Shown: positions 583 through 28,341 of the stretch, one piece after another | Layout of the letters: every line of letters begins with the position of its first letter | How positions within the stretch are numbered: position 1 is the first letter of the stretch | Source of the DNA: Desulfurococcales archaeon | GTDB lineage: Archaea; Thermoproteota; Thermoprotei_A; Sulfolobales; Desulfurococcaceae | Direction: 5' to 3' | Assembly: GCA_015520735.1 (NCBI GenBank) | Contig: WAPN01000029.1 | Coordinates: 1-42,497, forward strand | DNA length: 42,497 nt | The notes under the pieces: model-generated | Seen by the model: only the letters and a program-made list of their open reading frames with translations | The model's database searches: none | Told to the model about the DNA's origin: nothing | Program-made: the position numbers and the translations under genes

Positions 583-1212
583 GTGAAAATATTCCTATTA
601 CCCATAGGATTCCACGAAAATATACCCATGAGAATACTCGTGTCAAACCATGCGGGTATAGATGACAAGATATTCATCCTCACATGCAAACCAGCAGTAG
701 TAGGGGTCAGAGCAGCCTTTGAGCAACTGAAGAGCCAGTGCATAGTCAACAAGATCCCAGAGCCCTTACTCCTAGAACTCCCCTGCGGAGACCCCTACGA
801 ATCAATAATAATGATCAAGAAAACACTGCAGAGAGAAACAATAAACAACGCCGAGGTAATCGTCGGGGTCGGCGGAGGCCTCAGAATACTCTCACACCTA
901 GCAACAATAGCGCTCACAATACTAGACAAACCATACACCATACACTACGTGCCAGAGGCAGGAGCATTCAAAGAATACAGAATACCCGAACAATACATCG
1001 AAACCATAATGCACAAACTAACAAAAATAGAACAAGAAATCCTAAAAATCATAGTAGAAAAACCCGGGATAACCATAAAAGAAATAGCCAACGCGACAGG
1101 CAAAAAAGAAAAAACAATAGCAAACATAACAACACAGCTAAAACACAAACAACTCATAACACGCCAAAAAAGAAAACTATACCCAACACCACAGGCAAAA
1201 ACACTAGTATAA
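583..1212 (+). CDS. csa3: Csa3-type CARF-wHTH transcriptional regulator (left copy)
   Basis: This is a two-domain regulator of type I-A CRISPR loci. The N-terminal half (about residues 1-140) is a CARF-like Rossmann domain with the glycine-rich GVGGGLR segment near residues 96-102, the region that binds cyclic oligoadenylate in the family. Residues ~148-209 form a winged helix-turn-helix (EIANATGKKEKTIANITTQL region). I favour GTG at 583 over the preceding TTG at 580 because it gives the usual MKIFLL-type start. It sits between divergent csa1 and the leader of CRISPR array 1, the position of adaptation-type Csa3 (Csa3a). It differs clearly from the second csa3 at 39162, so the locus has two specialised regulators. 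Confidence 0.85.
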   Translation: MKIFLLPIGFHENIPMRILVSNHAGIDDKIFILTCKPAVVGVRAAFEQLKSQCIVNKIPEPLLLELPCGDPYESIIMIKKTLQRETINNAEVIVGVGGGLRILSHLATIALTILDKPYTIHYVPEAGAFKEYRIPEQYIETIMHKLTKIEQEILKIIVEKPGITIKEIANATGKKEKTIANITTQLKHKQLITRQKRKLYPTPQAKTLV

Positions 1213-1486
1213 AACATCCCGATCGTTTCTGGGATTCTGGTTTTTCTCTCTTCGCGGTTTTTGGTTATAGATCATTAGATTGTGTTATGCTTGTTATTGA
1301 AGTGTTAATGGGATCCATACTGTTCCCGGGTGATTTTCCCTGCTGTGCCCGGGAAAACCATGAGATGCATACTTAAACCTTTCTCCCCGAGATCCCCATG
1401 AGCTTCATGGAGAATCCGGAAGCCCGAATCGATAAACCTAAAAACAATTATTGACACAAAAACAACTGAAGAAACAACCAAGAACA
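1213..1486 (+). promoter_or_regulatory. Leader of CRISPR array 1
   Basis: This AT-rich, gene-free stretch lies between csa3 and the first repeat. The repeats on the + strand end in ATTGAAAG, the usual crenarchaeal 5' crRNA handle, and the decayed repeat is at the other end, so the leader must be on this side. Visible elements are an inverted repeat TTCCCGGG/CCCGGGAA (1323-1330 and 1348-1355), a small dyad CCATGA/TCATGG (1396-1410), TATA-like CTTAAACC (~1371-1378) and GATAAACC (~1431-1438), and GAAACAACCA at 1471-1480, which resembles the first half of the repeat. Confidence 0.7.
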
Positions 1487-1838
1487 GAAACAATAAACAA
1501 AAATTGAAAGTGCAGACACAGGGATTCACGGCTGGCTCGACCTTCTACGGAAACAATAAACAAAAATTGAAAGGAGACAAGCTATAGGAGAGTCCCGCCA
1601 CAAGAACTAGTACATAAAGAAACAATAAACAAAAATTGAAAGTTAAACAGCTCCTAGCCGAGCCGGTTCTCAGAAAGACCGAAACAATAAACAAAAATTG
1701 AAAGATCACAGAATACGCCCTCAAATACCTAGAACAACAGGAAAGAAACAATAAACAAAAATTGAAAGTCAGAAGAAGAGACAAGACATACGGGACATGC
1801 ACCCTGCATAGGGGAAACAATAAACAAAGAATTAGAAG
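1487..1838 (+). CRISPR. CRISPR array 1: five repeats, a decayed sixth, five spacers
   Basis: A 24-nt repeat starting GAAACAATAAAC and ending AAATTGAAAG occurs at 1487-1510, 1550-1573, 1619-1642, 1681-1704 and 1745-1768. The last unit (~1814-1838) is degenerate, with an inserted G and an altered 3' half. Spacers are 1511-1549 (39 nt), 1574-1618 (45), 1643-1680 (38), 1705-1744 (40) and 1769-1813 (45). The ATTGAAAG end marks transcription to the right, with the leader at the left. All intact repeats are the same variant as the oldest repeats of array 2. Processing by the Cas6 encoded at 31988-32902 is expected. Confidence 0.97.
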
Positions 1839-1868
1839 ATATTCTTTCAGGTAATGTATGATAATCCG

Positions 1869-2765
1869 TCATAACCTGCTGAGATAATATACAAAATTGG
1901 GAAGAATGATAACTAGGATAAAAGCTCCAGGTTCTATATGCAAGCTAAATCGATGAGGCCTCATCTGGTATCCATAGCTAATTCTTTTATCAGTGGCTAA
2001 GTTTATTGTTCCTATTAGGTTTGATTTTTCGAACACGTATCCGGGCTTTATGAAGCCTAGTGTCCATATGTGCATGGTTATGGTTCTGGACTGGTTTGCG
2101 GCCGGTGTTATTCTGGTTACATTGTATCTCACTGGGTCGTTGGTTCTTAGTACAATGTATGCTGGTTTGTTGCTCCGGATTATGAGTACTACTGGGATCT
2201 TACCGTGTATCGGGTATGGCTTCTTCACGAATATCATGTTTCTAACCATTTTGTTCTTTATCTTCATGAGATCTGTTGTCCAGGCCCTGAGCACCAGTAC
2301 GTTGCTTGTCTTTCTCAGCTTGTCGAGGTCAATATATTTTATCGATATGTAGATGTAGCTTGCACCCCTGGTTTTCACGCCTAGCAGGATCTCTGCTTTC
2401 CGGGGTGCTTTTGGCCCGGCCCGATATGTTAGCTCTACAGGAATTGGGAGGATCTCCCCCGACCTGGCCATGAGGACATTATTTCCGAATCTATAATTAT
2501 TGGGTACACTCACAATAACTGCTCCCCAATCGGGTGGAAGCTCACTTAGGCTACCAATAAAACCTATAGAACCAGTGTCCGTAGTGCTAGAAACAAGCGT
2601 TTTACCGGCTCCTGTGGTCGAGCGATTCCTAGGCTCTGCAACCGATCTAGTACTACTAGTACTATAAACCGGTAATTGATAATGACCCATAATGGCGATC
2701 ATAGAGATTAGTACCAATACCTCGACTATAATGGGCACCAATGATCCAGTACGCAAATCACTCAT
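1869..2765 (-). CDS. Hypothetical membrane-anchored or exported protein
   Basis: I do not recognise this 298-residue protein. Residues about 10-29 form a single hydrophobic segment (VPIIVEVLVLISMIAIMG) preceded by a short RTGS stretch, so it is probably an N-terminal anchor or signal. A Ser/Thr-rich linker follows (about 35-70), then a beta-rich domain. A second hydrophobic stretch lies at the extreme C-terminus (about 280-293). The basic-then-hydrophobic start is vaguely like an archaeal type IV pilin leader, but the length and linker do not make that convincing. It is convergent with CRISPR array 1 and divergent from the gene at 2941. Confidence 0.65.
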   Translation of the reverse strand: MSDLRTGSLVPIIVEVLVLISMIAIMGHYQLPVYSTSSTRSVAEPRNRSTTGAGKTLVSSTTDTGSIGFIGSLSELPPDWGAVIVSVPNNYRFGNNVLMARSGEILPIPVELTYRAGPKAPRKAEILLGVKTRGASYIYISIKYIDLDKLRKTSNVLVLRAWTTDLMKIKNKMVRNMIFVKKPYPIHGKIPVVLIIRSNKPAYIVLRTNDPVRYNVTRITPAANQSRTITMHIWTLGFIKPGYVFEKSNLIGTINLATDKRISYGYQMRPHRFSLHIEPGAFILVIILPNFVYYLSRL

Positions 2766-2940
2766 AAGAAATCATATTTTCATTGTACCTTATAATCAAT
2801 TCTAAACTATCTTAAATGAACAACGTAATAGATATTATTACATATTTTAAAACAATAGTATCAATAGATCAGTGGTGTTACGGATATTTTAATAAATAAT
2901 TATTCATAAATTAATTTTCATGATTTGAGGTGTTTTTGTT

Positions 2941-3966
2941 ATGAGCAAAGACTTAAGATCTCTCCAAGAAAACGAATTTATGGATTATCTTAGCCGTAAA
3001 TTGGATAATGTTGTTCTTATGAGTAAAATTGTCCTGAACGGTAATCTTGTCGTGTCTAAGACTCTTAGATCGAGCGGGAAGATATACGAGTATATAAAAG
3101 AGCCGTGCCGGGAAGGTTTTTGCTACGTACATTTAAGGCTGATAAGCAAGGGTGAAGAAGTAGGTGAGCTCAAGATATTCTTATTCAGAGGAAAAGTAGT
3201 AGCGTGTATAGGGAGAATAGGAAGCGAGAAGATATATGGAAACAACGCATTAGGCGTTCTAGAAAAGCTACGTTCTATGGGAATAGAGTACATTAAAATG
3301 ATAGCGTATAGTTTTGAACAGTCACTAATTGATATGGACTTAGAGAGAATGATAACAAAGACTATTGTCTCACCTCAACCGAAAAGAGCTGAGACAGGGG
3401 AGAAGGAGATCGAGAAAAAGAGACCTGCAGAGAAGAAAGTGGGAGACATTAACACGTATATTGCTACAAAGCTGGGATTGCTGGATATACCCGTGGTTAA
3501 TGTTGCGATCATAAGGGGTAAGAATCATCTCTTGATTGATGTAGTATGTGATGAGGAGAGCGAGATACCGCCGCCTAAAAACATAGCTCTGGCAACGATA
3601 AAATACTATATAGAAGCTGTGGGAGTGGATAAGGCGAAAGAGAAGATCAAGGTTGTTGTGCACCATAAAAAGATATATACAGAGACATATGACTTGAGCA
3701 GGGATATCCATATATGGAGGCTCCTGGGTTCTATACCCGAGATAATCCAGAAATATAATCTATATGCTGAAAAACTCAAATATAACATAAAGAACAACAG
3801 AGCCCTCGAGATCTCCCTTGTGCTGAAACGCTATGGAATATACTCTACTGCCAACATATACGAATTGACCAGAGAGATCTACAATAGACTGAAGCAGGAG
3901 TGGAAGGGAGATCTCAGAGTAAAGGCTAAAATAGGGGCATGGGGACTAGAGGCCAAATACCCATAA
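2941..3966 (+). CDS. Hypothetical cytoplasmic protein, two domains with charged linker
   Basis: This 341-residue protein has no family I can name. It has an N-terminal alpha/beta domain (about 1-140) with the pattern ELKIFLFRGKVVACIG. A highly charged Lys/Glu-rich linker follows at about 145-165, then a C-terminal domain of about 175 residues rich in Lys and Tyr. There is no signal peptide or membrane segment. GAGGTG about 10 nt before the ATG supports this start. The pattern of a short beta-strand region followed by 'G-x-V-V-A' resembles the C-terminal part of the broken gene at 5277-6047, but the similarity is too weak for a homology claim. It appears monocistronic. Confidence 0.65.
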   Translation: MSKDLRSLQENEFMDYLSRKLDNVVLMSKIVLNGNLVVSKTLRSSGKIYEYIKEPCREGFCYVHLRLISKGEEVGELKIFLFRGKVVACIGRIGSEKIYGNNALGVLEKLRSMGIEYIKMIAYSFEQSLIDMDLERMITKTIVSPQPKRAETGEKEIEKKRPAEKKVGDINTYIATKLGLLDIPVVNVAIIRGKNHLLIDVVCDEESEIPPPKNIALATIKYYIEAVGVDKAKEKIKVVVHHKKIYTETYDLSRDIHIWRLLGSIPEIIQKYNLYAEKLKYNIKNNRALEISLVLKRYGIYSTANIYELTREIYNRLKQEWKGDLRVKAKIGAWGLEAKYP

Positions 3967-4498
3967 GGCCCAGATAATACCTGATCAAGGGATAAACACA
4001 TACTAGGAAACTGGTAGAAGAGAAAGATACGGGCCTCGAGAAAGGTTGCTTGATCAGAATATATTGATGGAGAAAGATAGTGTCATGGTCTCTAGCTTAG
4101 ACACCGAGGATATTATGTTTTGAGGATATAGTGTCGTCGTAAATACTATGTCCTAGCTACATAGTGGTTGAGGATCTCGGAACAGTGTGGAAAATACTAT
4201 GAAGCCGCTGAGAGACTCCTATGATCAGCCATGAAAATCCACGATGAATCACTGGAAGCAGTACCGCTGCTAGCTCATAGAGCATTGCGACGCATGATCA
4301 TGGCTCTCTCATACTACTATACTCCAAAAGAAGCAATCCTTCATAACACCAGTGGCCGTAGGAGGAGCCAGATAACGCGGATTAGTCCCAGAATATTCAA
4401 GGAGATCGTCAGGGGCGCTATGTAAGTAGGGAAAAAATGGTATTTGTTTTTGTTTACTTATCCATGTGCCCTACTCCTATTTCTCCCAGTCCTCCCAG
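3967..4498. other. Gene-free stretch with one hairpin
   Basis: I see no supported gene here. A 64-codon open frame at 4231-4425 has no ribosome binding site and no recognisable composition, so I leave it out. ACTATGT (4145-4151) and ACATAGT (4159-4165) form a 7-bp stem with a 7-nt loop. The rest is unremarkable; the stretch may be remains of an older gene next to the two broken genes on its right. Confidence 0.4.
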
Positions 4499-5246
4499 TC
4501 ATTCCAGGAATTTCTCGGCCTTGTCGTCCTCCATTATGACACCATGCTGTGGTGCGATCATTCTAATGTCTAGTCCTCTGATTGTTTCTAGCCGTTTATC
4601 TAGTGGGCGGCGGCATGGGAGGTAGCGGCGGTGAAACCCCTCCATCAGCTTGGCGCGACTCTCGAAGTCTTCGACGAAGAGCACCATGTATTCCGGGAAG
4701 ACTGCAGCACCCAGGTCTCCCGTGAAGAGTATTTTTGACACCGAGTCGTAGAGGTGAAAGTTGCTGGGGCTGTGGAGGAAGTGTGCTGGTAAGGCTTTTA
4801 GAATGGTCTTGCCCAGAACTATATCCATCCCTTGGTCAGGGAAATGGGCTTATCCTCTTTATATCGAGGGCTCCTGGGTGGAGGATGAACCCTACCCATA
4901 GCTCTGATATATAGATCGTCGCGTTGGGGGAAGACGTCTAGGAGGATGTTGGGGCTGCCGATGACGTCGGGGTCCTGGTGGCTGAAGAAAAGCGCGTCTA
5001 CCCTGGCAGGGTCTATGAGCTCCGAGACGTTCTCTAGGACTCGCTGGAACACATAGTATCCGCCCGGATCGATCAGGAGCCCATGGCCGCTGTCGACGAC
5101 CATGTACTGGTTAGCCAGTATTCCATTCTCAGCCCCCGACTCGTCTATGCGAGCCAGACGAACTTGTGATCCCCGTCATCGTAGAGGATATAGGGCTTAT
5201 GTATACGTAGACCTATAGCGACATCGCATCCGGGACAATAATGCAT
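4499..5246 (-). pseudogene. Broken ODP / flavodiiron-like metallo-beta-lactamase fold gene
   Basis: Read right to left from ATG at 5246, the pieces make one protein only if frame changes are allowed. The first frame (MHYCPGCDVAIGLRIHKPY) ends at a TAG near 5147. A second frame carries IDESGAENGILANQY and VVDSGHGLLIDPGG, then FFSHQDPDVIGSP, the metal-binding signature of ODP domains. Between about 4905 and 4838 the family-like ISELWVGFILHPGALDI lies in a third frame. From about 4835 another shift gives MDIVLGKTILKALPAHFLHSP, LFTGDLGAAV and MIAPQHG. The intact ancestor would be about 245 residues and bind a di-iron or dioxygen/NO-type site. At least three frame changes make a decayed gene the simplest reading; sequencing error is less likely because flanking genes are clean. 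Confidence 0.75.
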
Positions 5247-5276
5247 GGGCCTTAACTGGGATTAAAACTGTAAAAA

Positions 5277-6047
5277 CTATTCAGGCTGACGGAGAACACC
5301 ATATAATCTAAGCTTAACTAGCTCCTTTACATAGTTCAAAGGCTTGTCGTCGTCAAAGAACTCTTTATCGCCTACGACGACGTATACGCCGCGCAGCTCG
5401 CCGCACACGAAGAGCATCCTGAGCCTAGCGTCGTCTCCGTCGCCCGAGATGTAGATCGCCGAGTACTTCTTAAAGATGCCCTCACCGGATGACAGGAGCT
5501 CCTCGACGTAGCTGTGTAGCGTCCCATTCCCGAGAACCCTCACCTCGTTCTTTATGAGGACGGGCTTCATTATGAGCTTCGTCACCCATGATATGCTTGC
5601 GAGTTTCTCCGAGTAGTCTGCAGGGCCTGTACCAGAGAGCCCGGCGGCTACTGTTGCCACGACCTGCTTGGAACTGGCTTCTTTCTCGACTTCGCGGGCT
5701 AGGCTCTCGGCGATCTCCACAACGTATTTGGAGACAACCCATTTACGGGGCCCATTATATGTTGCATCGGCCACGAGACCATTACTGCTGGTACTGTAGA
5801 TCAGCTCGATCGTACTCTTAGATCCCTGTAGCCTTATACATGCCGAGCCGTTACCGGGCTCAACAAGGATCTCTTAGATGTCCCTGAACCTGAAGATCCT
5901 CAGCCTGCGGAACTCCAGGACTACCCCCTCATAACTCCTTCCGACGACGTAGGGCATGTTTGATAAGACTAACTCCCTGTCACAGAGAACCCTGATATCG
6001 TTCCTCGGATCAATACCGACAGGTATCTTGATCTTTTACTTGAACAT
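5277..6047 (-). pseudogene. Unrecognised gene interrupted by two in-frame TAA codons
   Basis: One reading frame continues from ATG at 6047 to the stop at 5277 (about 256 codons), but it contains TAA at 6036-6038 (codon 4) and again at 5874-5876. Between and after these the frame is clearly coding-like: KIPVGIDPRNDIRVL, then EILVEPGNGSACIRLQG, then the last 165 residues beginning VADATYNGPRKW. I cannot name the family. It lies 30 nt upstream of the broken ODP gene in the same orientation, so the two probably formed one operon that has decayed as a unit. The downstream 165-residue frame could still be translated from an internal start. Confidence 0.6.
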
Positions 6048-6418
6048 ACTGTTTCATCGTAGCATAGGATCAGGTATGATTTAACACGCCATTATTTCAG
6101 TATAATTACTAATAAATTAACAAAACTAACCAGTGTATTATAGTCTCGAAACATAAATCTAATGAATTTGTAAAAAATTTATATTAATATCCCAACCCAT
6201 CTGCTAGAAGAACGCTAAGGGCTTTGAGCAATAGATCCAAATAGGATCTTATGAAGGCGCGGCAAATATTTCCGATAAACTACAGCCTACGATCTAGGTA
6301 CTGGGAGCCCTACACCGCGATGCCGCGGGAACATTCTGTCTGAATAAATTGAGAAAATAACTATATAACGCAACCGTCATATATCCATTTCTAGTGACGA
6401 AGAGGGAAGAATGGGGCT
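6048..6418. other. Gene-free region with promoter of the exported-protein pair
   Basis: No gene is apparent. CTATATAAC at 6361-6369 is a good TATA box about 50 nt before the GTG at 6419. A short GC hairpin, CCGCG/CGCGG around ATGC, lies at 6315-6328. The AT-rich stretch 6080-6190 probably carries the lost promoter of the broken operon on the - strand. Confidence 0.4.
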
Positions 6419-7414
6419 GTGATAATCAAATATTTGTTTGTCTTTCTAACAGTGCTGATACTATTGCTCGGCTCGTTATGCAACGCCAGCATATATGCTT
6501 ATAGTGCCGCGGAACTGGAGAATGCTAGACTTGTAGGAGTGGTGACCACGATCATACTGGAATCCTATTGTACGCCCTCAGGAGTGACCACCACGAGCTT
6601 TCCAGTGAATGGTATGATTCCGTTCCTTTATAATAGGAACGATATGTTCTACAGCAAATATGATGTCCGTATTTATTGGGATGGACGCGCTGTAGCGGCA
6701 ACTTACGTCCCGGCAGTACTAGATGTGTATAAGGCTACTGGGAGGGGAAAATATGCTGGCGAAGAAATAATTTCTAGAAGGCCGTCCTTGATAGCTCTAA
6801 TGGCTGTTTTCAGCGGTAGCAGGCACGTAGAAGCCGATAGGAACATACAGCACATAGAGTACTATAGACTTGGGAACGGCATACTGTATCTCGGGGTATT
6901 GTCTAGGCAGACTCTATATGTGTATAAGGTAGTAGTGAAGACGAGATCTACATGCAGACAATGCATTATTGATAAGGCTTGGGCCGAAGCCGCGGCGAAG
7001 ATATCCTCGTCACTGAAGCTCTATGATTTCAGCAGAGCAAGCTTCGGGCTAGTCCAGCGTGAAGCCGGGGTCACAGCTAAGATCATAGACTGGAGAATAA
7101 CTGGGAATGAATATGAGTACACGGTCGTATTCGTGATCCCCATATACGAGATCGATATAGGGTATGAGGCTGGTGTCCTTCTAAGGATAGATCAATATCT
7201 GCATAGGGGGCAGGAACCACGAACCCAGACAGGCGGTGAGGCAGAACAGGGTACATCCATTATAAATATCTCGTACTACAGCCTTAACTGTATAGGAGAG
7301 AATGCCCTCTACTCTGACAGCCCGCCCATGGAGCAATATATGGGATATTATCTCTTCGACGCCCATTGGGGAACCGGCAGACTGGTTCTCGCGCATGAAC
7401 ACGGGCGGGGGTGA
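6419..7414 (+). CDS. Secreted hypothetical protein
   Basis: This 331-residue protein is of unknown family. Residues 3-27 form a clear signal peptide (KYLFVFLTVLILLLGSLCNAS), with likely cleavage near the end of it. The remainder is a Tyr- and Arg-rich extracellular domain with no second membrane segment. A CRQC pair near the middle could form a disulfide or bind a metal. GTG at 6419 is chosen because it directly precedes the signal sequence and AGGG lies about 14 nt upstream. The next gene starts 10 nt after its stop and is also exported, so the two probably form a cell-surface operon. Confidence 0.7.
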   Translation: MIIKYLFVFLTVLILLLGSLCNASIYAYSAAELENARLVGVVTTIILESYCTPSGVTTTSFPVNGMIPFLYNRNDMFYSKYDVRIYWDGRAVAATYVPAVLDVYKATGRGKYAGEEIISRRPSLIALMAVFSGSRHVEADRNIQHIEYYRLGNGILYLGVLSRQTLYVYKVVVKTRSTCRQCIIDKAWAEAAAKISSSLKLYDFSRASFGLVQREAGVTAKIIDWRITGNEYEYTVVFVIPIYEIDIGYEAGVLLRIDQYLHRGQEPRTQTGGEAEQGTSIINISYYSLNCIGENALYSDSPPMEQYMGYYLFDAHWGTGRLVLAHEHGRG

Positions 7415-7424
7415 GGCATAGATA

Positions 7425-9344
7425 ATGAGTACGTCGAGGAACCTAGTGGTCATGCTGTTTCTCACAATGATCTTCGGAGGAGCCATGCCTTTAGTAGTGT
7501 CTCCTCACACACTCTGGGCCACCGATACATTGGCAGGCACGAAATACGATGTTTTCATCGCCTCTAATGTATCGATCAGACTCTACTTGCTTGATAAAAA
7601 CCTGAGCGTCTTCGAGGCACCTTTATCGAAAGCTCTTCCCTCCTCTTGCACAAACATGTCTGTCCCTCTCTTATCTAGGAGTAACTATCAGGAGATCAGC
7701 GTCTTACCCGGTATAAGCGGCATAGTGAGGGTTACCCCGTTCTATCTGCCCAATGGCTCACTGGTATACAGTGTTTTATTCGTCATATATGACTATCTGG
7801 GCTGTACGAAGAACCGAGCCAGGCTCCTCAGGGTCATAACCGAGTATAGAGGAGAGGGAATGCTCAACGCCTATATAGCCGTCGCGGTCCCCATAAAGGA
7901 TCCGGACGAGTATGGCGTAGAGTCAATACTCTATCCGAAGAACATAGTGATATCCTACAGATATTTCAACACGACGCACTTCGAGGTAGACATCATAATC
8001 TATAGCGCGTCATACAACATATATGGCGGGGGAATACCTTCGAGAACATACAATGCCAGGTACAGGTTCCTGGTCAGCCTCATGGACTGGAGGTCATGGT
8101 ACTGGGACTGTAACAAATGGGTTCCAGCTGGGGTCTTCCCGCTCGCATCACCCTTGATCGCCCCAGCTCTCCTGATTTACCGCCTATACCATAACTACTA
8201 TGATGATACAGAATACTACATGGATCACCATAGTGATCTTGAGAAAATAGTTGAAAAAATAGCCAGACTCAAGGAGACGAGCGGCTGGATTAAAGCCGAT
8301 GAATACCTGGCCAATTTCTCTGAGCAACCAGCCCTTAGAGCCCTAGGAGTGTTCAATACGACTTATCTAGGGAGGAGCATCGAGATCGACTACCTCAGAC
8401 ACAATGTATTAGGACCGATAATAGAAGCCCGTATCCCGCCTATCAACGGGATCCAGGTTGAGACTATGCAGAGCCTGTCGGGGAAAGCTAAGGAACAGCT
8501 AGCAGAGGGTCTAGTAGAGTATATTAAACGCGGGGATAAGGCGGTCCTCGAGAATGTCATTGAAGAATACAACGGGTTTGTCACAGGCTTCAAAACCTAC
8601 TACATGGGAGGAGGGAGAGCCGGGCTGGCATGGGCGTTTGTCTCAGATCCCGAGGCACCCGGTATAAAAGGTATAACAATGTTGGCTCTGCCGGGCATTG
8701 TGATGAGAGCAAAGCTCGGCCTAGGCGATAAGCCCAGATACTCTGTGATCAGCTTAGCCTGCCCCAATAACCCGGCCAGGATAAAGGCTCTATACAACGT
8801 CCCGTGCGAGCAGTACCTTCACTGGATAAGGCGTAGTGCGGGAACGCATGTTGTCCTAGCAATCGATACGAGGCTCGCCAGAGCAATGCTTTTCAGCCCC
8901 ACGAAAGCGGGCAGGGCTATAAACGCGTTAATGTCCAGAATTACAACGATGTACGCGCGTACATGGTATAGGATCGCGTGCGGGGACAATCCGGCAGAAC
9001 TACTCAGAGAATTCGTTTCAGAATTAAACAAGACAATCGTATCTACAGGGTTATGGCTTGGCGGGAGAGACGGCGCCGCGATCCTCGAGGACATCATAAA
9101 CCATAATGGCCGCATAGAGCTCGAAGCACCGTCGACGCATACTAGTCACGGCGGCACGGCTGTGACGCCATGGATAACAAGAACCACTATTACGCCGAGC
9201 CGAAAGACCGGAGAGAATTGTACAGTGATATCTAGGCCTGCATCGGCTTCGACCAGGCATAACAACTATTATATGATCGGCGCCGCAGCATTGGTCGTCA
9301 TCTGCTCAGCCGCCTACTGGTTCTGGAGACGAATAAAGAGATGA
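7425..9344 (+). CDS. Large exported protein with C-terminal membrane anchor
   Basis: This 639-residue protein has no recognised family. Residues about 8-24 form a signal sequence (VVMLFLTMIFGGAMPLV). Residues about 615-633 form a single membrane helix (MIGAAALVVICSAAYWFW) followed by RRIKR, the stop-transfer arrangement of a surface protein anchored with its bulk outside the cell. A Ser/Thr-rich stretch just before the helix (about 570-610) looks like a stalk, which is common for archaeal surface proteins. Several scattered Cys residues could form disulfides. It lies in an operon with the secreted protein at 6419. A peptidase or binding role is possible, but no catalytic motif is evident. Confidence 0.7.
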   Translation: MSTSRNLVVMLFLTMIFGGAMPLVVSPHTLWATDTLAGTKYDVFIASNVSIRLYLLDKNLSVFEAPLSKALPSSCTNMSVPLLSRSNYQEISVLPGISGIVRVTPFYLPNGSLVYSVLFVIYDYLGCTKNRARLLRVITEYRGEGMLNAYIAVAVPIKDPDEYGVESILYPKNIVISYRYFNTTHFEVDIIIYSASYNIYGGGIPSRTYNARYRFLVSLMDWRSWYWDCNKWVPAGVFPLASPLIAPALLIYRLYHNYYDDTEYYMDHHSDLEKIVEKIARLKETSGWIKADEYLANFSEQPALRALGVFNTTYLGRSIEIDYLRHNVLGPIIEARIPPINGIQVETMQSLSGKAKEQLAEGLVEYIKRGDKAVLENVIEEYNGFVTGFKTYYMGGGRAGLAWAFVSDPEAPGIKGITMLALPGIVMRAKLGLGDKPRYSVISLACPNNPARIKALYNVPCEQYLHWIRRSAGTHVVLAIDTRLARAMLFSPTKAGRAINALMSRITTMYARTWYRIACGDNPAELLREFVSELNKTIVSTGLWLGGRDGAAILEDIINHNGRIELEAPSTHTSHGGTAVTPWITRTTITPSRKTGENCTVISRPASASTRHNNYYMIGAAALVVICSAAYWFWRRIKR

Positions 9345-25263: not shown

Positions 25264-25570
25264 GGTAAGCATAGAGTACAGGTATAAGAGACACAAGCTA
25301 TCAGCCGAGACCAGGCATTACGAGGTACTATTCGGTGTCATTGAAACTATCGGAGAATATGACGACAAGACAATCTATGATGCAATCAATAAATGTATAA
25401 ACGAGAAATATAGGAAGAATCTTCTAGACAGCATAAGGCTTGGGAAGAATGTCAGGATATACATTAGCGGCGAGGATCTAGGGAAGATATTGGCTGTGCT
25501 AGACCGGGAGGACTGGAAGCCTGTGCCCCGGGAATATGACTACGTTCTTGTACTGGAACATCTAGATTGA
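25229..25570 (+). CDS. Small hypothetical protein at the end of the hydrogenase operon
   Basis: This protein of up to 113 residues is unrecognised: soluble, no Cys pairs, with alternating strands and helices (IYISGEDLGKILAVLDRE near the C-terminus). It overlaps the end of the small-subunit gene, and its stop overlaps that of the convergent regulator at 25562 by nine bases. The start is uncertain. TTG 25229 opens the frame, but the best Shine-Dalgarno sequence (GGGAGGAG, 25241-25248) stands seven bases before a CTG at 25256. A role in assembly or maturation, analogous in position to HycH, is a guess from context. Confidence 0.6.
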   Translation: MRKSGRRQGLYRVSIEYRYKRHKLSAETRHYEVLFGVIETIGEYDDKTIYDAINKCINEKYRKNLLDSIRLGKNVRIYISGEDLGKILAVLDREDWKPVPREYDYVLVLEHLD

Positions 25571-26695
25571 TAGCGGGAATATGCAAAGCGGCTTTTCATT
25601 CCCTCTTATAAGATCCTCCATCGTATTCGTTATCACAGAGGAATATGCTTTAACTAGCTCGCTGTAGAGCTCCTTTATGTTATCAAACACGATCCTACCT
25701 ATATGGGTGAACGTGGTTTTTCCATGGTCGATTCCTCCCCTCTTAGTCTCGATCAGCTGTATACCAAGTATTTTCTCTATTCTCTCCAAGTCCTTGATCG
25801 TTCTCCGAATACGGGAATAGGATATCCCAACGAGCTTACTCGTCGCCCTTATACTCTTATACTCCAAAATGTAGTCGACAATATTTATGAAGGAGTCATC
25901 GATCAAGACATCGCCGATTCTAAGCATCGGCTTAGAGCTCTCGTAGATAAAGCTGATTATGGATGAAAGCGATAATTGTCCATGGCCGTGGCAGAGAAAC
26001 GCTATACAGTCCCTGAAAGAGATCATCTCTATATCGGGATTATCGCTTGGAGCAAGAACGGTGAGCGTGTCGAGAGCCCCTCTGATAAAGAAGATCTTCA
26101 CATCATAATTGAACCACTTAGTCGTGCAATGCCGTGCATCCGCCAGGTTGAGGAGAAGCCTGACCTCATCGTATACCCTGCCATCCTTGATAAGCAGGAC
26201 TGGGCGATAACCGTATATCCTCGACATCTCGATAAACAGGTCTATATCGTCCTTCTCCGTATTCTTATCGACTTTTAAGATAATTATCCTTTTAAAGCCA
26301 GGGCGTACATACATCAGTTGCTTTAGAAAGGATCTGAAGGATATTATGTCCAGCAGATTCTCACTATAGAGCATGATATAGTCAAACGAGTCGAGACGCT
26401 CAAAAATGTTCTGACCAAACTTCTCCATATCATCGACCAGCCCAACAGGCACGTCGTGAGGATAAACTTCCTTGATGAACTCGCCGCTCTCCACCATGTT
26501 GAAGGGGAGGTTAAACACGATGTTCTTACCATAGTTCTCGTACGCGTAATCAATCACCGTCTTATCAATATTGGAGTAACCAATATCTAGCTTTAAATCG
26601 CTGAAAAGCCGTGTCAGCATGCCAAGTCTCTTAAATATGAAAAGCTGATTCAACAAATCGACACCATATATACAATAAGCTTTTATGCTAAACAA
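25562..26695 (-). CDS. Putative regulator with ModE/LysR-type winged helix at the C-terminus
   Basis: This 377-residue protein has an unrecognised N-terminal alpha/beta domain (about 1-255) joined to a winged helix at ~262-345. The latter contains ATSKLVGISYSRIRRTIKDL and GIQLIETKRGG followed by TTFTHIGRIVFDNI, the pattern of ModE and LysR DNA-binding domains. Having the DNA-binding part at the C-terminus is the reverse of ModE. The gene is convergent with the hydrogenase operon, so it may sense a ligand and control that operon or the neighbouring nuclease gene. The ligand is unknown. Confidence 0.65.
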   Translation of the reverse strand: MFSIKAYCIYGVDLLNQLFIFKRLGMLTRLFSDLKLDIGYSNIDKTVIDYAYENYGKNIVFNLPFNMVESGEFIKEVYPHDVPVGLVDDMEKFGQNIFERLDSFDYIMLYSENLLDIISFRSFLKQLMYVRPGFKRIIILKVDKNTEKDDIDLFIEMSRIYGYRPVLLIKDGRVYDEVRLLLNLADARHCTTKWFNYDVKIFFIRGALDTLTVLAPSDNPDIEMISFRDCIAFLCHGHGQLSLSSIISFIYESSKPMLRIGDVLIDDSFINIVDYILEYKSIRATSKLVGISYSRIRRTIKDLERIEKILGIQLIETKRGGIDHGKTTFTHIGRIVFDNIKELYSELVKAYSSVITNTMEDLIRGNEKPLCIFPLSI

Positions 26696-26949: not shown

Positions 26950-28341
26950 ATGTGTTCCAGCACCCGGATATTGCTCGACAACCTGTATGATTTCCTAGCA
27001 AGCCATTATCTAAACACGTCAATGCTTAGCATCCCGCACGAGTACATGAGGCTTATTGGCCGCGACCCCTTCGAGATAGGCGCGGTAGCGTTTCTCTCGG
27101 CACTATATGATTTCCAGATGCGGATTAGCCTGATAAGATCAAGGTTTCTGGAGATCATATATTATCTCAGCGAGAAAGGGATCGGGATATTTGATCTCCT
27201 CGACGATAAATACTTCAAGGATATGCTCGGCAAACTGCTAGAAAAGACATCGTTCTTCCACAGGTTTGATCGTAGTGCAGGCCTCTTCAAGATCCTTTTG
27301 AGAGTATACTATGAAACAGACTGGGGATCCCTCATATCCAGTATGGAGGGAGACATAGATGTTGGGATAGCCGAGTACATCTACTATAGATCAGTCTTTT
27401 CGGCGCCGTCCAAGGAACTAGCCGGGCTATTAAACAGGTTTCTTTCAAGAAAAAGGAGTTCTCCGCATAAGAGGATCAACTTATTCATTAGATGGATGGC
27501 TAGGGACGAGTACCCCGATCTCGGGCTATGGTCCAGCATCATTGATAAGAAATGCCTCCTAGTCCCCCTAGGTACAGAGATAGCGAGAACAGCCGCTAGG
27601 GTCTTCCTGGGAAGAACCAGGGAGTTGCCGAGGAGCAGGAGGAGCGTCTATCTCGTCACAAACATTCTCAGCGGCATCAACCCTGAGGATCCCATAAAAT
27701 ATGATTTTGTCCTATCCAGGCCCATGATCCTCGGCCTATGTAATAAGGATATGGAGTATTCATACTGTTGGGTATGTCCACTAAAGAATATATGTAAGGC
27801 CGCATCGAGGATCGATCCTGAGCACCAGAGACGCGTGTTCGAGGAAAAGCTCAGAATAATGGATGAGGAGAAAAGGTATGATCGCATCCATAACATCGTC
27901 TTGAATAAGGGGGTCAAGTACATCTCCGAGAAATATGTTGATCGTCTCGGCCTCATCTGCTCCTCGGATAGAAGCGTCGATCACGGGTTAAGACCCGATT
28001 TCTTCTGCAACCATAGCTCCCCCATAACCCTGGTCGCGGAGGCTAAGACAAGCACAAGGGCTAAGGAGGCGCCAGTACAGCTGAAGACGTATATTGATGA
28101 ACTGAAGGTAAGGGAAACTACTGATAAAAAGTATTTTGCCTTCCTAATATTCGGAAAACATGATCCCGTAGAGCTTAACCATATCATCGAGTCACTATAT
28201 CTAACCAATACCACGCACACGGCAGATCATATTGAAATTATAATCGTAGAAAAAGAACCGCCCATAACTATCAACATAAAAACGAAGTTAACACATGGTT
28301 CTAACCAAGATGCCGTAGAGCAAATCCGCAGGTTAGCCTAG
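26950..28341 (+). CDS. DUF2400 HhH-type protein fused to a RecB-like PD-(D/E)XK nuclease
   Basis: This 463-residue protein has two modules. Residues ~40-285 match DUF2400 (TIGR02757), a helix-hairpin-helix DNA-glycosylase-like family: FLSRKRSSPHKRINLFIRWMAR, then LVPLGTEIARTAARVFLG, then INPEDPIKYDF. They end in C264, C273, C276 and C282, spaced like the Fe-S loop of endonuclease III (x8, x2, x5 here). Residues ~325-402 carry a nuclease core: D350 (RPDF), E364 and K366 (VAEAK), then Q377 and Y381 (QLKTY), the QxxxY motif of RecB/Cas4-type nucleases. The Asp that catalyses base excision in EndoIII-type enzymes is replaced by Gly208 in PLGTE. Base recognition coupled to strand cleavage, in repair or defence, is inferred. 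Confidence 0.72.
   Translation: MCSSTRILLDNLYDFLASHYLNTSMLSIPHEYMRLIGRDPFEIGAVAFLSALYDFQMRISLIRSRFLEIIYYLSEKGIGIFDLLDDKYFKDMLGKLLEKTSFFHRFDRSAGLFKILLRVYYETDWGSLISSMEGDIDVGIAEYIYYRSVFSAPSKELAGLLNRFLSRKRSSPHKRINLFIRWMARDEYPDLGLWSSIIDKKCLLVPLGTEIARTAARVFLGRTRELPRSRRSVYLVTNILSGINPEDPIKYDFVLSRPMILGLCNKDMEYSYCWVCPLKNICKAASRIDPEHQRRVFEEKLRIMDEEKRYDRIHNIVLNKGVKYISEKYVDRLGLICSSDRSVDHGLRPDFFCNHSSPITLVAEAKTSTRAKEAPVQLKTYIDELKVRETTDKKYFAFLIFGKHDPVELNHIIESLYLTNTTHTADHIEIIIVEKEPPITINIKTKLTHGSNQDAVEQIRRLA

Follow-up and report, generated by a model that had tools for sequence, protein, structure and literature searches.

A 463-aa ORF at positions 26950-28341 (+) of contig WAPN01000029.1, from a heat-loving Desulfurococcales archaeon, raises the question of what a single protein would do with both a DNA glycosylase fold and a nuclease. 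The stretch of 42,497 nucleotides that was analysed is called the window here. Pfam, an AlphaFold2 model and fold matches divide the product of the whole gene (26950..28341, +, 463 aa) into an HhH-GPD (DUF2400) domain, an Fe-S loop and a NucS-like PD-(D/E)XK nuclease. The HhH-GPD glycosylase-fold domain covers residues about 1-263 (26950..27738, +), as assigned by the DUF2400 score of 83.8 bits, by hhalign and by fold. It is followed by an EndoIII-like Fe-S loop with four Cys (residues 264-282; 27739..27795, +), recognised by conservation and by alignment to the EndoIII Cys loop. The NucS/EndoMS-like PD-(D/E)XK nuclease domain (residues 306-445; 27865..28284, +) is delimited by invariant residues, fold and hhalign. 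The protein ends with a C-terminal extension of 18 residues (28285..28338, +), which has low confidence in the AlphaFold2 model and lies beyond the stop of the same-genus orthologues; in these orthologues (L003 and L004) the stop codon comes 18 residues earlier than in the window gene.

The original prediction for this gene, the joining of a DUF2400 Fe-S/HhH domain to a PD-(D/E)XK nuclease, is borne out by Pfam, in which PF09674 (DUF2400) matches residues 87-257 far above its gathering score of 25, and by the AlphaFold2 model (pLDDT 92.1, pTM 0.89), which contains two folds. TIGR02757, which had been named as a search model, matches as well, but with 81.9 bits against a cut-off of 139.2, so that the protein is a DUF2400 relative rather than a TIGR02757 equivalog. 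It had also been stated that no characterised example is known. In agreement with this, no published account of the fusion, or of DUF2400 as a glycosylase, was found in searches of open-access literature, and a search within PMC10140301 brought up ligase-nuclease fusions but none of the window type.

The relationship of the N-terminal half was determined with an alignment (A3, also the basis of the model) of 54 rows drawn solely from the window and related loci: nine of subgroup A, to which the window protein belongs, three of subgroup B, 10 from Thermoplasmata and 32 bacterial. In hhalign, the DUF2400 part of A3 aligns with 30 archaeal EndoIII proteins over 218 columns (Prob 96.5, E 9.8e-10). 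In this alignment, K174 coincides with the Schiff-base Lys of EndoIII, which lies in the PGIGxKT motif. The EndoIII DTH motif is matched by G208 at its catalytic Asp and by E210 at its His, and the four Cys fall on the Fe-S loop of EndoIII. The EndoIII-style Cys loop had been predicted correctly: it reads C264-x8-C273-x2-C276-x5-C282 in the window protein and is kept in all subgroup A (9/9), subgroup B (3/3) and Thermoplasmata rows (10/10) and in 2/32 bacterial rows. K174 is present in 54/54 rows. Position 208 is Gly in 9/9 subgroup A rows and Asp in all others (3/3 B, 10/10 Thermoplasmata and 32/32 bacterial), while position 210 is Glu in 9/9 subgroup A rows and His in 42/42 rows of stand-alone proteins. 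A regular expression scored 79 of the best 80 of 143 relatives and gave the same division, with Gly in nine (L039-L047, all subgroup A) and Asp in 70; the locus that it missed (L092) reads PLDIH by eye.

By fold, residues 1-292 match Pa-AGOG (VIA-align Z 10.5, rmsd 4.7, 219 aligned), human MUTYH (Z 10.2, rmsd 4.8, 231 aligned) and D. radiodurans EndoIII-1 (Z 9.7, rmsd 4.5, 215 aligned), although a Z near 10 in a mostly helical domain can reflect a common arrangement. Foldseek alone returned nothing at E <= 0.001 for the window model, a single-sequence search of the PDB and profile searches gave no significant match, and PF00730 (HhH-GPD) does not match the window protein up to E 10; one profile search aligned the catalytic PVDTH segment of EndoIII at E 0.058. 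AGOG, which heads the fold matches of subgroup A, was considered as the parent family and dropped, since hhalign yielded no alignment with 20 AGOG proteins (Prob under 1), and an EndoIII-like kinship is favoured. The window protein thus resembles Endonuclease III and the other members of the HhH-GPD superfamily (PF00730; by fold also AGOG, MutY and OGG1) in the fold of residues 1-292, the position of the Schiff-base Lys and the Cys4 Fe-S loop. It differs from them by a Gly in place of the catalytic Asp, by the missing PGIG hairpin sequence and by the fused nuclease. The domain that had been called glycosylase-like is so by fold and by kinship to EndoIII, but not by its catalytic Asp. This replacement makes ordinary glycosylase chemistry doubtful, and it is probably the nuclease half that does the cutting. 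Its occurrence in all subgroup A loci suggests that base excision may have been given up there.

In the C-terminal half, the residues H314, D340, D350, E364-x-K366 and Q377-x3-Y381 stand out. Both H314 and D340 occur in 9/9 subgroup A rows of A3; D350, E364, K366, Q377 and Y381 occur in 8/8 rows that have residues there, the ninth row (L046) stopping earlier. D350, E364-x-K366 and QxxxY are the residues that had been predicted, and their conservation in homologues, together with the PD-(D/E)XK fold of residues 306-445 in the model, speaks against the two objections raised beforehand, namely that the C-terminal part might not fold as a nuclease or that its acidic and Lys residues might vary. 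The core fold with D...(E/D)xK that characterises PD-(D/E)XK nucleases is found in the model, in the fold matches and in the conserved D350, E364 and K366. The best fold matches are NucS (2vld; Z 8.7, rmsd 3.3 Å, 107 aligned), BsmI (Z 8.5, rmsd 3.4, 121 aligned) and EndoMS (Z 8.3, rmsd 4.2, 110 aligned), which are tied within 1 Z. Comparison of a seven-row nuclease profile in hhalign gave NucS Prob 86 (E 5e-6), Cas4 Prob 63 and Hjc Prob 19. Single-sequence profile scans gave weak E-values, with NucS_C matching 4/7 sequences (best E 5e-4) and Cas4 5/7 (best E 0.004). Judged by sequence profiles, the nuclease is nearer to NucS/EndoMS, a mismatch endonuclease of archaea, than to RecB/Cas4, NucS being the best match of the three families tested. 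The earlier label 'RecB-like' was therefore roughly right, but it did not name the nearest profile. No Pfam nuclease model scores over its cut-off against the window protein: Cas4 reaches 12.7 bits versus 22.7, and NucS_C has no match up to E 10. The likeness to the C-terminal domain of NucS/EndoMS (PF01939) lies in the PD-(D/E)XK core with D, E-x-K and Q-x3-Y, in the best profile score of the three families and in a place among the top fold matches. The difference is that residues 1-292 are HhH-GPD instead of the NucS N-terminal domain, and that the host has its own NucS. The window genome in fact holds separate genes for AGOG, EndoIII and NucS, and the fusion protein is thus not simply a replacement of one of these.

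The reading that we prefer, at a probability of about one half, is that of a single-chain archaeal lesion or mismatch endonuclease, in which the glycosylase fold inspects bases and the NucS/EndoMS-type nuclease cuts. The HhH-GPD domain (endonuclease III/AGOG-type), with its Fe-S loop, would scan the DNA and probably flip out a wrong or damaged base. Having lost the catalytic aspartate (G208), it may recognise more than it excises. The NucS/EndoMS-type PD-(D/E)XK domain would then hydrolyse the backbone at this base or close to it, using D350, E364, K366 and a divalent metal. We infer that the substrate is DNA, that bases are flipped, that cutting depends on a metal, that the two halves are coupled and that the protein serves genome maintenance rather than defence. 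According to PMC7690668, EndoMS flips bases and cuts both strands, which makes a NucS-type nuclease with a glycosylase-fold reader mechanistically plausible. The same paper notes that some archaea have no characterised MutS/MutL or EndoMS and that further repair routes are expected (PMC7690668).

The distribution of the fusion is less favourable to this endonuclease reading. Matches to the gene were found in 8/147 related genomes, the window's own included, and some of these are fragments; such a patchy distribution is unlike that of core repair genes and counts against it. In G006, a nuclease-only match sits at a contig end and is probably a cut fusion. When the genome collection was scanned with an alignment of subgroup A and B sequences, 143 relatives came up, and the 80 best were analysed further. 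Among these 80, eight loci of subgroup A (L039-L046) have a tail beyond the DUF2400 part; one of them (L041) is cut by a contig end and another (L046) stops early, ahead of the nuclease residues. L047 is a fragment, and subgroup B has three loci (L048-L050). The other 68 come from bacteria and Thermoplasmata and look like stand-alone DUF2400 proteins: in 66 of them a DPxKYD motif was found, with tails of 14-48 residues counted from the motif, and the two that the motif script left unscored (L064 and L087) end soon after the Cys loop. These stand-alone DUF2400/TIGR02757 proteins share with the window protein the same domain, including the invariant K174-R175, W182, D190, G192, W194 and D247-P248...D252. 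They differ in lacking the nuclease tail, in having D and H where the window protein has G and E, and, for most bacterial members, in lacking the Fe-S loop. Subgroup A is hosted by Desulfurococcales, Thermoprotei and Nitrososphaeria MAGs. One further locus, L046, lies on a contig labelled Candidatus Omnitrophota and shares 77% identity with L043, the copy from Nitrososphaeria; this is probably a case of a mis-binned archaeal contig, or else of transfer. Subgroup B is hosted by Methanodesulfokora, Culexarchaeum and an Archaeoglobi MAG, and other genomes hold further copies. Among three same-genus genes, dN/dS lies at 0.21-0.24 in the HhH half and at 0.13-0.15 in the nuclease half, so both halves are under purifying selection. 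As both halves are constrained in this way (0.13-0.24) and two independent half-structures are recovered by fold, the pairing of the domains is more than chance.

Subgroup B is the reverse of subgroup A: the glycosylase Asp is kept, and in the nuclease half D, E, Q and Y are aligned, but a Glu stands at the K366 position in 3/3 loci (ExE for ExK). This loss of the Lys also counts against the endonuclease reading. The subgroup B model (pLDDT 89.8, pTM 0.81) matches EndoIII with Z 14.3 (rmsd 4.0, 211 aligned) and NucS with Z 12.4 (rmsd 2.5, 103 aligned), and its tail matches NucS by fold and not by profile. In a tree of the glycosylase half alone (61 rows, quick method), A and B form one clade (SH-aLRT 99), as would be expected from a single fusion. 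PF09674 was searched in 398 genomes of the phylum and matched in 24, mostly in a third, very divergent group C that belongs to one family of the phylum. The 16 group C proteins that were collected (L019-L034; 417-461 aa) have PLT-x-E in place of the Asp motif in 15/16 cases and a tail pattern E..PD..EPH in 16/16, i.e., a different nuclease-like tail. Their N-terminal part aligns with DUF2400 (Prob 98, E 3e-13). Group C has a very long branch in the tree and its placement is unreliable. Profile comparison found no alignment among the tails of A, B and C, which is weak evidence because the alignments are shallow. Tentatively, and at less than even odds, these proteins might represent a new alternative-excision class of single-chain archaeal enzymes, in which a retired glycosylase fold (DxH to GxE) would act as base-flipping sensor for a NucS-type nuclease. 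In subgroup B the roles would be reversed, and group C may pair the sensor with an unrelated nuclease. On this tentative view, glycosylases would have been converted repeatedly into endonucleases guided by lesions.

The alternative that survives best, although it is rather unlikely, is that the protein is still a glycosylase/AP lyase. In that case K174 and a relocated acid, e.g., the invariant E210, would remove the base, while the attached nuclease would act in cis as AP endonuclease or trim the 3' end. The presence of K174 throughout the A3 alignment and of E210 in every subgroup A row agrees with this, as does the Asp kept in subgroup B. Moreover, a Gly at position 208 is no proof of lost activity, as an HhH-GPD protein of Saccharolobus islandicus without the Asp still excises bases, according to PMC11754123. 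This Sis-HhH-GPD is likewise a crenarchaeal Fe-S HhH-GPD protein without the catalytic Asp, with Ser152 at the position of Gly208, and it uses a Glu. It differs from the window protein in its size of about 26 kDa, the missing nuclease, a catalytic Glu134 at the Lys position and a standard HhH-GPD motif (PMC11754123). Against a retained glycosylase stand the identity of the replaced residue, as D138 of EndoIII has been named as catalytic, and its pattern of loss: among the best 80 of 143 relatives, the Asp persists in the 70 other loci scored and is replaced in subgroup A's nine only.

A role in phage defence, in which incoming DNA would be recognised by its modified or damaged bases and cut, much as in type IV restriction, is an unlikely explanation. 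The patchy distribution would suit it, and according to PMC11078745 DNA glycosylases can provide antiviral defence in prokaryotes. The defence-rich surroundings that had been predicted exist in part. The window copy has cas6, cas3-HD and cas3 helicase genes at less than 10 kb and adjoins a gene pair with a PIN-domain protein; the small gene upstream of the PIN gene has no Pfam match, so the pair is VapBC-like by position only. Elsewhere in subgroup A, L043 adjoins hsdM, hsdS and hsdR genes (type I R-M) and a DEAD-box helicase, and two AAA/OLD-like ATPases are neighbours of L042. Around L045, the genes scanned code for an M29 peptidase, an ABC ATPase and DUF58 proteins, which argues the other way. 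Defence genes are thus near two of the three subgroup A loci with about 10 kb or more of sequence, leaving aside the window and the same-genus copy L040, a number too small to show an association. Defence genes are abundant in crenarchaeal genomes in any case. The window protein itself has no match among the PADLOC models, nor have five neighbours of L048, among them the MoxR-like and DUF58 genes, and a scan of viral contigs gave 62 pattern stretches with no relative among them. A conserved operon partner was considered and dropped, and no partner or self-protection gene recurs beyond the window's genus except in one block. This block of ABC ATPase, MoxR-like AAA and DUF58 genes (Pfam) lies upstream of the fusion gene in L045 (subgroup A; 3931-7696) and L048 (subgroup B; 1167-4918). 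Clusters of this type are common, so their recurrence is weak evidence.

A structure-specific nuclease for branches, flaps or junctions, with NucS-type cutting guided by HhH DNA binding and no base recognition, is very improbable. Both halves are DNA-binding folds, and branched DNA was the substrate in the first studies of P. abyssi NucS (PMC7690668), but the conserved K174 region and the Fe-S loop of a base-excision fold would be left unexplained.

If the preferred reading of a lesion or mismatch endonuclease is true, a lesion-reading fold with strand cutting in cis, in place of base excision, would be a new entry step into repair, or else a new form of modified-base restriction. It would also provide a function for DUF2400, a widespread unannotated family. 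The residues K174, G208, E210, E364 and K366 make this reading directly testable. For the stand-alone proteins, a hint to a repair role comes from their surroundings: at 14 of the 54 stand-alone loci examined, all 14 from Thermoplasmata, the Fe-S-loop DUF2400 gene has a member of one gene family no more than three genes away, and the member at L056 is a PolX-like DNA polymerase (Pfam). In the window, the divergent neighbour of the fusion gene (25565-26695, -) encodes a ModE-like HTH domain (35 bits, below the cut-off) and an N-terminal part without assignment. Its orthologue is 89% identical in G001 and 64% in G033, and it is interrupted by stops in G020.
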